Source: an uncultured Treponema sp.
GTDB taxonomy: Bacteria; Spirochaetota; Spirochaetia; Treponematales; Treponemataceae
DNA: 64,000 nt
Direction of reading: 5' to 3'
Assembly (NCBI GenBank): GCA_946535985.1
Contig: CAMNDY010000001.1
Span: 1-64,000 of the forward strand
In this document: piece by piece, positions 19,054 to 21,432 of the stretch
Layout of the letters: each line of letters starts with the position of its first letter
Numbering within the stretch: position 1 is the first letter of the stretch
Position numbers and translations under genes: made by a program
Notes under the pieces: generated by a model
Seen by the model: the letters and a program-made list of their open reading frames with translations, nothing else
Database searches by the model: none
What the model was told of the DNA's origin: nothing

Positions 19054-20124
19054 TTAAGATAAGTCTTTTGGAACCATTGAGTCAAATAATTCTGTTATAA
19101 GAGGATTTTCTGCAAACTTAGCGCAGTTTTTGTGTATAAGAAGGCTGCCTTCTTCTGCGGCATGTTTAATACAGTTGCTTTTTTGCAGAAGTTCAATACA
19201 CTTTTCTACTGCAGGGGAGTTTATGCCTTCTTTTGCAGCCTGGGCCATGAGCTTACTGATTTTTGTTTTGTCCTGCGGAAACTTCTGAATATGAAGAAGA
19301 ACCGGCAGGGATTTTTTTCCTTCTACAATATCGTCTCCGCGTTTTTTTCCGGGGTTTCCTTTTGTAAGGTTTATTACGTCATCGATTATCTGAAAGCCAA
19401 CGCCAATTTGAGCGGCGATTTTTCCATAGGCTGCAGCCTGTTTTTCTGTGGCACCTCCAGCCATAAAACCAACCTGGGCGGCAAGGGATGCGAGAGTTCC
19501 TGTTTTATTCTGCACCATGGCAAGGTATTCGTCTATGGTAGGATAATGGTCTTTCTCTTTATGCCAGTAAATGTCCATGGCCTGCCCAAGGTGAAGACGG
19601 CGTAGTTCATTGGTGTAGAGCTTGTAAAAGGCAAGTTTTTGATTTTCTGTGAGCTTAGCAGTTTCAAGACAGACAGGTGCTTCAAAATAAAGCCAGCTGG
19701 CACTGTTTAAAGCGTGGTCAATTCCATATTTAATATGAGCAGCAGGTTTTCCCCGGCGCAGGTCGGCACTGTCTTCAATATCATCGTGGATAAGGCTTGC
19801 AGTATGAACAAACTCTACAAGTGGTGTGAGTGCGAGAGCTGTTTTTTCTGTTAGGGGCTGGGCCTGGGGCGACTTTTCTCCTGTTTGCTTCTTTGCCATC
19901 TGATAGCAGAGCATAAGAAAGAGGGGTCTCCATCTTTTGCCGCCAAGCTTTATAAGGTCAATATTTGGTTCAATAAGCTTACTTATAAAAGCCTTATTTT
20001 GACTTATAGCATCCGGCAGTTCCCCAAAGGAAGCCTTTTGCCATTTAGAATCAAAGTCATATAAAATAGCCTTAGACAAGGCCTCTTCAATCTTTTCAAG
20101 AAGGGTTATTAGTTTTGGATTCAT
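19054..20124 (-). CDS. Polyprenyl synthetase family protein
   Basis: SLIHDDIEDSADLRRGKPAAH and GVGFQIIDDVINLTK. Confidence 0.92.
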   Translation of the reverse strand: MNPKLITLLEKIEEALSKAILYDFDSKWQKASFGELPDAISQNKAFISKLIEPNIDLIKLGGKRWRPLFLMLCYQMAKKQTGEKSPQAQPLTEKTALALTPLVEFVHTASLIHDDIEDSADLRRGKPAAHIKYGIDHALNSASWLYFEAPVCLETAKLTENQKLAFYKLYTNELRRLHLGQAMDIYWHKEKDHYPTIDEYLAMVQNKTGTLASLAAQVGFMAGGATEKQAAAYGKIAAQIGVGFQIIDDVINLTKGNPGKKRGDDIVEGKKSLPVLLHIQKFPQDKTKISKLMAQAAKEGINSPAVEKCIELLQKSNCIKHAAEEGSLLIHKNCAKFAENPLITELFDSMVPKDLS

Positions 20125-20185
20125 GGTTACTATTATATAGTAAAATCATTTTTTCGCAATGATTACACGCCGGGACAGGTGATAT

Positions 20186-20492
20186 AGGCATGAAGAGGGA
20201 AATTAATATCCCAGATTGCCTGTAAAAAATAGCGCAGGGTTTCCGCATTATAAATATTAAAATAAAATCTAGTGGCGCGAAGGAACAAAACGGAGGGCAA
20301 AATGACTCTGACTGTTGATGCCGCGGGAGCGGCATTTAATAGTTCCACTACAACAGTCAGCGGCAAGCGGCTAGCCGCGGTTTTGACCTCCGTTTTGTGA
20401 CTGGGAGCCACTATAATAGTGATATTTTATTTATAATGCGGAAGCTATTTTTTTATACCAATACCAGTATATTGATTTCCCTGTTCATGCCT
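20186..20492. repeat. ~307-bp imperfect palindrome (multi-branched hairpin)
   Basis: Nested inverted pairs: 20186-20209/20469-20492, 20223-20233/20444-20455, 20241-20256/20428-20443, 20270-20276/20407-20413, 20285-20302/20381-20398, 20310-20317/20351-20358. Confidence 0.88.
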
Positions 20493-20493
20493 G

Positions 20494-20797
20494 TGTGGAA
20501 AGTCACCAATATATTCACGCCTTGTCCACAAGTTATCCACATTTTTGACGACTGTGGTGGATAAAAATGACACACCTTTATTATTCCAAGTCAAATATTC
20601 TTGCAGATACAATGTTAGAATAAATACAAAAATATCAGTTAAATCGTTATAATATAAGGAATTAGCAAATAAGTGATATAATGTTGCTTAAAAAACTACA
20701 TTTTTATGTATCGCACTATGTGGTAGCTGACCAGGGTTTTTAACTAAAAAGCACTAGAATGCAAGTTTAGCACCGACTTTTCCACAAGTTTTCCACC
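20494..20797. promoter_or_regulatory. DnaA-box cluster (oriC-like or DnaA-binding regulatory region)
   Basis: TTATCCACA 20533-20541, TTGTCCACA 20522-20530, TTATCCACC (minus) 20556-20564, CTTTCCACA (minus) 20494-20502, TTTTCCACA 20778-20786, TTTTCCACC 20789-20797. Confidence 0.6.
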
Positions 20798-20880: not shown

Positions 20881-21432
20881 TTAGCCGAGTGAAACTTCAC
20901 CGCGTTCGTTGATTGCAAGAATAGACTTGCAGCCTGAACAGCGGAAACGTCCGGCTTTTGTAGCTCTAAGCTTCTTACTGCAAACAGGGCATTCAATAAC
21001 AAGAGGGAATACCGAAGAAGTAGTTGGTCCTCCTTCAGAGAAGAAACTGATTGCTTCTTCTGTAGAGTTCTTGATGTTGAAGAACTGTGAGAATCCAAGT
21101 AACTGGAATACTTCATAAACCTTAGGCTGGATTTCAAGAAGAACTACATCTCCACCCTTTGGTTTTACCATTTTTAAGAAAACTGTAAACGATCCAATTC
21201 CTGTTGATGAAACATAGTTAAGAGCTGCGCAGTTGAAAATGAGGTTTACAAATCCTGCTTCAATTACTTGTGTAATCTTTTTTTGAAAATAAGTTGAATT
21301 ATATGTGTCGATATATCCTGTAAGGTAAATAATCAATCCGTTTGGCACGTTGAAAGATTTATCAAGCCTGATCTGCAGACTGTCATCTTTATCAGCGTCA
21401 AATCCAGGAATAATCACATTATTAGCATCCAT
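20881..21432 (-). CDS. STAS-domain anti-sigma-factor-antagonist-like protein with C-terminal zinc ribbon
   Basis: LIFNCAALNYVSSTGIGSFTVFLKMVKPKGGDVVLL; CPVCSKKLRATKAGRFRCSGCKS. Confidence 0.85.
   Translation of the reverse strand: MDANNVIIPGFDADKDDSLQIRLDKSFNVPNGLIIYLTGYIDTYNSTYFQKKITQVIEAGFVNLIFNCAALNYVSSTGIGSFTVFLKMVKPKGGDVVLLEIQPKVYEVFQLLGFSQFFNIKNSTEEAISFFSEGGPTTSSVFPLVIECPVCSKKLRATKAGRFRCSGCKSILAINERGEVSLG

Follow-up and report, generated by a model that had tools for sequence, protein, structure and literature searches.

A probable MITE-like repeat with a conserved folded core in one Treponema genus

A long imperfect palindrome occupies positions 20186..20492 on the + strand of the DNA analysed here, a stretch of 64,000 nucleotides from an uncultured Treponema (the window). 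We consider it highly probable that it is a copy of a MITE-like mobile repeat, non-coding and non-autonomous, that is confined to one Treponema genus and in which a subtype with ISAs1-type ends would be moved in trans and a core would be kept because its + strand folds, the copies also being homogenised. Elements of this general kind are already known; what is new here is the sharing of one folded core by several kinds of arm in a MITE-like repeat. It forms a large family of structured repeats that Rfam does not contain; genomes carry dozens of copies each, and the covariation is very strong. Since the folded non-coding core is tied to an ISAs1-type transposon as well as to other arms, it allows us to ask what keeps the fold, be it benefit to the host, mobility or homogenisation. 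The core motif is also found in the named isolates Treponema bryantii XBD1002 and B25 and Treponema sp. C6A8, which makes the element testable.

The palindrome sits between two - strand genes, 19054-20124 and 20881-21432, whose translations suggest a polyprenyl-synthetase-like protein and a STAS-domain/zinc-ribbon-like protein, respectively. All of the arms named in the initial annotation were found where it had placed them. The outer arms (20186-20209 and 20469-20492) are paired at 22 of 24 positions, the segments 20241-20256 and 20428-20443 at 16 of 16, and the segments 20285-20302 and 20381-20398 at 17 of 18, while the internal hairpins ATGCCGC-GGGA-GCGGCAT (20318-20335) and GCGGC-TA-GCCGC (20367-20378) are both present. 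When the + strand of 20150-20530 is folded as RNA it reaches -152.2 kcal/mol, whereas dinucleotide shuffles give -95.2 +/- 4.7 (z = -12.1, with zero shuffles equally stable); for the - strand, z = -10.3. The annotation had also stated that no ORF explains the palindrome, and indeed no convincing ORF covers it. The - strand has an 82-aa frame that lacks support, and a 32-codon + strand frame (ATG...TGA, ~20302-20400) was rejected as a small ORF because its start ATG is missing from most other copies in the alignment. Searches of Rfam gave no match overlapping the palindrome at gathering scores and only chance-level matches for the element at a relaxed threshold; the element is no known Rfam family. 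Elsewhere in the window, positions 2710-2789 on the - strand match the Skipping-rope RNA (RF02924) with 61.1 bits, over its gathering score.

At the centre of the palindrome lies a conserved folded core of ~134 nt (20275..20408, + strand), which, with its two hairpin branches, is common to 23 diverse copies. Its outer helix is formed by 20285..20302 and 20381..20398. The first branch pairs CTGACTGTTG (20308..20317) with CAACAGTCAG (20351..20360), has the hairpin at 20318..20335 as its tip and includes the unpaired segment ATAGTTCC (20339..20346), conserved across the family as ATArTTnC. The second branch is the hairpin at 20367..20378. In four copies, three from the genome of the window (L122, L123 and L124; G000) and one from G075 (L226), a second well-conserved repeat of ~95 nt (CCTTCGCAGCACAGCTGCTCGGAGACTCACTCAAAACGCTCC...) is found at this second hairpin.

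A structure-blind alignment of the 23 copies, analysed using RNAalifold, yielded 40 pairs, 30 of which show two-sided changes. Across 107 distinct copies, standard pairs occupy 95.3% of the pair cells and 37 of the 40 pairs have changed on both sides; the 107-copy alignment was fitted to the model, and the structure-blind alignment is the cleaner evidence. In the corresponding controls, shuffles were 68.6% paired and slid controls 34-43%, and 0 of 500 shuffles reached either 95.3% or 37/40. These results show that the secondary structure of the core has been conserved across many species while its sequence changed. The initial annotation had made a functional reading depend on compensatory changes in relatives and on a transcript; such two-sided changes occur, and by this half of its test the reading is not refuted. 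Its proposal of a large structured RNA stands as far as conserved structure is concerned, for which the covariation is overwhelming; the folded form itself may be RNA or single-stranded DNA.

A BLAST search of 20150-20530 against its own genome returned the window copy and seven more matches of ~140-220 bp with 87-100% identity, plus many partial ones. The part common to these copies corresponds to window positions ~20235-20445 and does not include the outer arms of the initial annotation. A covariance model of the core (R1) detected 48 copies in the same genome, a number that is a lower bound because several contigs end inside copies. Over 298 genomes of the phylum, model R1 found this genus alone among 139 genera (0 of the 138 others). 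Within the GTDB genus, 63 of the 118 genomes searched have matches, which form species-specific sets, and no copy was detected by the model in about half of these members; diverged copies occur in other genomes of the genus. According to a simple ORF call, copies are mainly intergenic. In the genome of the window, the downstream gene is co-oriented with the copy in 28 of 35 cases. Regulation linked to genes was rejected, as the orientation of copy and gene is inconsistent across species, and no family of neighbouring genes was identified beside the copies. A phage origin was likewise rejected, the exact core pattern being without match in viral contigs. Eight close pairs of copies were found by pattern (L050, L084, L086, L093, L101, L027, L323 and L346), and all eight are divergent with a spacing of 85-175 bp; L050 and L027 are orthologous, so there are fewer independent events than pairs. 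The model matches in G068 include tandem pairs as well.

The subtype at 20235-20445 has recognizable transposon ends. It starts with CAGGGC...CGCATTATAAA and ends with the complement, forming a non-coding unit of ~215 bp whose own-genome copies are 96-100% identical. Target duplications of 10 bp, matching at >=9/10 positions, were seen at 16 of 65 distinct places bounded by these terminal inverted repeats (TIRs); among mismatched flank pairs only 3 of 4160 reached this level. A 384-aa ISAs1 transposase (NF033564, E = 1.3e-107) lies in G031 between matching TIRs that are 1266 bp apart, and transposase fragments lie inside other TIR-bounded units (L216 in G023 and L373 in G065). From the TIRs, the 10-bp duplications and the transposase of G031, this subtype can be read as a probable ISAs1-family MITE bearing the folded core. 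A search of 16 genomes for ISAs1 transposases found none in the genome of the window (86% complete) and only remnants elsewhere; this genome, G010 and G021 yielded no ISAs1 transposase gene although all three carry many ISAs1-type ends, so that the subtype may no longer be mobile in them. An ISAs1-family transposase acting in trans would move the subtype, as happens with other MITEs. The term MITE-like element, one of the options in the initial annotation, is therefore apt, given the many copies, the ISAs1-type terminal repeats in one subtype, the 10-bp target duplications and an empty site in a relative.

Most own-genome copies lack ISAs1-type TIRs and have instead an A-rich arm on one side and a T-rich arm on the other, as in AAAAAATAGC-core-GCTATTTTTTT. 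Many have additional complementary arms, and the arm sequences vary among copies with complementarity retained. Still different arms surround the same core in G068, G099 and G032. The window copy contains several of these layers. Outermost is the left arm at 20186..20209, which has the GGGAAAT..AAT motif of other own-genome copies, together with its partner at 20469..20492. Inside these, AAAAAATAGC (20224..20233) is the A-rich left arm of the version that lacks ISAs1 ends, and its pairing partner is the T-rich right arm GCTATTTTTTT (20444..20454); most own-genome copies, and the orthologue in the sister genome G026, are flanked by this motif. Next come the left ISAs1-type terminal inverted repeat CAGGGTTTCCGCATTATAAATA (20235..20256) and a truncated right one at 20428..20445, TATTTATAATGCGGAAGC without the final CCTG.

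Comparison with relatives explains this arrangement. At the orthologous site of G026, the outer arms are as in the window, including the left arm motif, and the core version is different. In the window genome, an ISAs1-type unit replaces the G026 core version, its right end being merged into the shared GCGGAAGC with loss of the right-most CCTG. This shows that the window copy is a chimera, in which an ISAs1-type unit lies inside the outer arms of another version that is still present at the G026 site. The window copy (L051) has no 10-bp target duplication, as expected for a recombined copy. In G019 the same site is empty, measuring ~141 bp versus 463 bp in the window; the inserted unit of ~322 bp (roughly 20173-20496) is close to the ~307 bp of the initial annotation. 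In the same intergenic region, TTATCCACA and sequences close to it form a cluster of DnaA-box-like sites at 20494-20564 and 20778-20797. The TTATCCACA pair is retained in G026 and in the element-free G019, and the total of such sites in the window is not above chance.

Copies at fixed sites give a further view of the core. Nine orthologous pairs have flanks that can be aligned. In seven of them core identity is 0.95-1.00, where the far flanks are at 0.83-0.90, and this difference implies that constraint or homogenisation acts on the core. In the remaining two pairs the core differs, with identities of 0.77 and 0.81. One of these compares the orthologous - strand copies L050 and L027, whose cores share 0.77 identity and whose adjacent arms share 0.97; eight pairs have changed on both sides yet are kept. 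Among the copies compared, none came closer than 0.76, so that no close donor for the rewritten stems was found. The fixed-site data agree with purifying selection as well as with recombination that replaces cores.

Counts of non-Watson-Crick pairs lean towards the + strand as the strand that folds. Within the outer helix, G-U exceeds A-C by 27:7 in the structure-blind alignment and by 114:9 in the fitted one, where a single pair contributes about half of the G-U cells. DNA hairpins also tolerate G-T better than A-C, so this bias goes only as far as favouring RNA. To judge from these base-pair counts, + strand RNA would thus be favoured over single-stranded DNA for the core. In the inner helices both mismatch types are very rare (2:3 structure-blind and 13:10 fitted). 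Such a near-absence of G-U is unusual for a selected RNA, and the pattern fits strict Watson-Crick pairing or homogenisation by template switching. The ends of the element have no strand polarity, the longest left A-run equalling the longest right T-run on average, and on this basis a reading as polar terminators was rejected.

Our preferred explanation combines these observations. The ISAs1-type subtype would move with a transposase supplied in trans, the core would be retained because its + strand folds, with RNA in read-through transcripts a likelier form than single-stranded DNA, and the copies may also be homogenised when recombination exchanges cores at fixed sites. A different emphasis is that the element is a functional multi-copy RNA, either a cis element or a small RNA, that benefits the host and was carried along by mobile arms. 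In favour of such a role are the constrained core of fixed sites, the conservation of unpaired positions (ATArTTnC, for example), the strand bias of outer-helix G-U and the co-oriented downstream genes of the window genome; we nevertheless regard it as possible rather than likely, because gene orientation is inconsistent in other species, no family of neighbouring genes was identified, about half of the genus has no detected copy, and gene conversion could equally keep cores alike. Conversely, the element might be a DNA palindrome in which template switching or gene conversion keeps the arms complementary and no selection acts on the structure, making the covariation a by-product. The scarcity of G-U in the inner helices, where it is about as frequent as A-C, would be accounted for in this way, as would the replacement of entire cores at fixed sites and arms that vary between copies but remain complementary. 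The unpaired positions, however, are also conserved across species, and outer-helix G-U far exceeds A-C, which leaves this account rather doubtful in our judgement. We put forward only tentatively, as something less than an even prospect, that selection acts on the 134-nt core as a portable folded module, which has been joined to several sets of mobile arms, some of the ISAs1 type and some not, is constrained at fixed sites and acts via its + strand, probably as RNA.

The initial annotation had further suggested a replication- or partition-related DNA structure, which finds no support across the genus as a whole. In G101 and G099 the copies are dispersed, about half of the genus lacks a detected copy, and GC skew does not switch within the window. 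The exception is G068, a complete genome whose contig begins at dnaA and in which copies cluster around oriC: 20 of 28 lie <=53 kb from dnaA (KS p = 3e-13, with the tandem copies not independent). Along this chromosome, copies L154-L159 span 2.685 Mb to 0.060 Mb through dnaA, and there are zero copies between 0.454 and 2.283 Mb. An oriC in the window itself was rejected, as dnaA is on another contig (G000:C7) and there is no skew switch. Even with the clustering in G068 and the DnaA-box-like sites that adjoin the window copy, of which the pair also occurs in G019 where the element is absent, it is very improbable that the copies are chromosome replication or partition sites. Equally remote from our expectations is an element of the REP/RAYT type that a Y1 (HUH) transposase would move. 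The element is palindromic and dispersed, with close pairs in opposite orientation, as such a reading would have it, but no Y1_Tnp match was found in the copy-rich genomes G000, G068, G099, G101, G295 and G087, such a match is present in the element-free G018, G285 and G359, and TIRs with 10-bp duplications do not fit HUH transposition.

In the open-access literature on Treponema repeats and ISAs1 MITEs we found no description of the element, which is weak evidence of absence. Several known systems share some of its features. Like ISAs1-family insertion sequences and their derivatives with internal deletions, it has 10-bp duplications and terminal repeats that match those around the G031 transposase; unlike it, the G031 insertion sequence has no folded core, and the core is also found with non-ISAs1 arms. 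REP/BIME elements with RAYT are similarly palindromic and dispersed, with some copies paired; the present element is much longer and has no co-occurring Y1 transposase. The nearest in kind appear to be bcr1- and ERIC-like taxon-restricted intergenic repeats with a conserved fold, a resemblance in kind. The bcr1-bcr18 repeats of the Bacillus cereus group are described, in an article that cites the original papers, as intergenic and group-specific, with high-copy members that are MITE-like, some having a conserved secondary structure, and with about half of the copies transcribed (PMC3446304). By this description, our element resembles them in intergenic position, group restriction, MITE-like character and conserved fold; it differs in having a multi-branch core and in its ends, which are of the ISAs1 type in one subtype, the remaining copies having other arms. 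ERIC, including that of Yersinia, is likewise a long imperfect stem-loop dispersed between genes, of 127 bp and with a single stem-loop fold (PMC2267715), whereas the Treponema element measures ~210-310 bp, has two branches and is found in one Treponema genus only.
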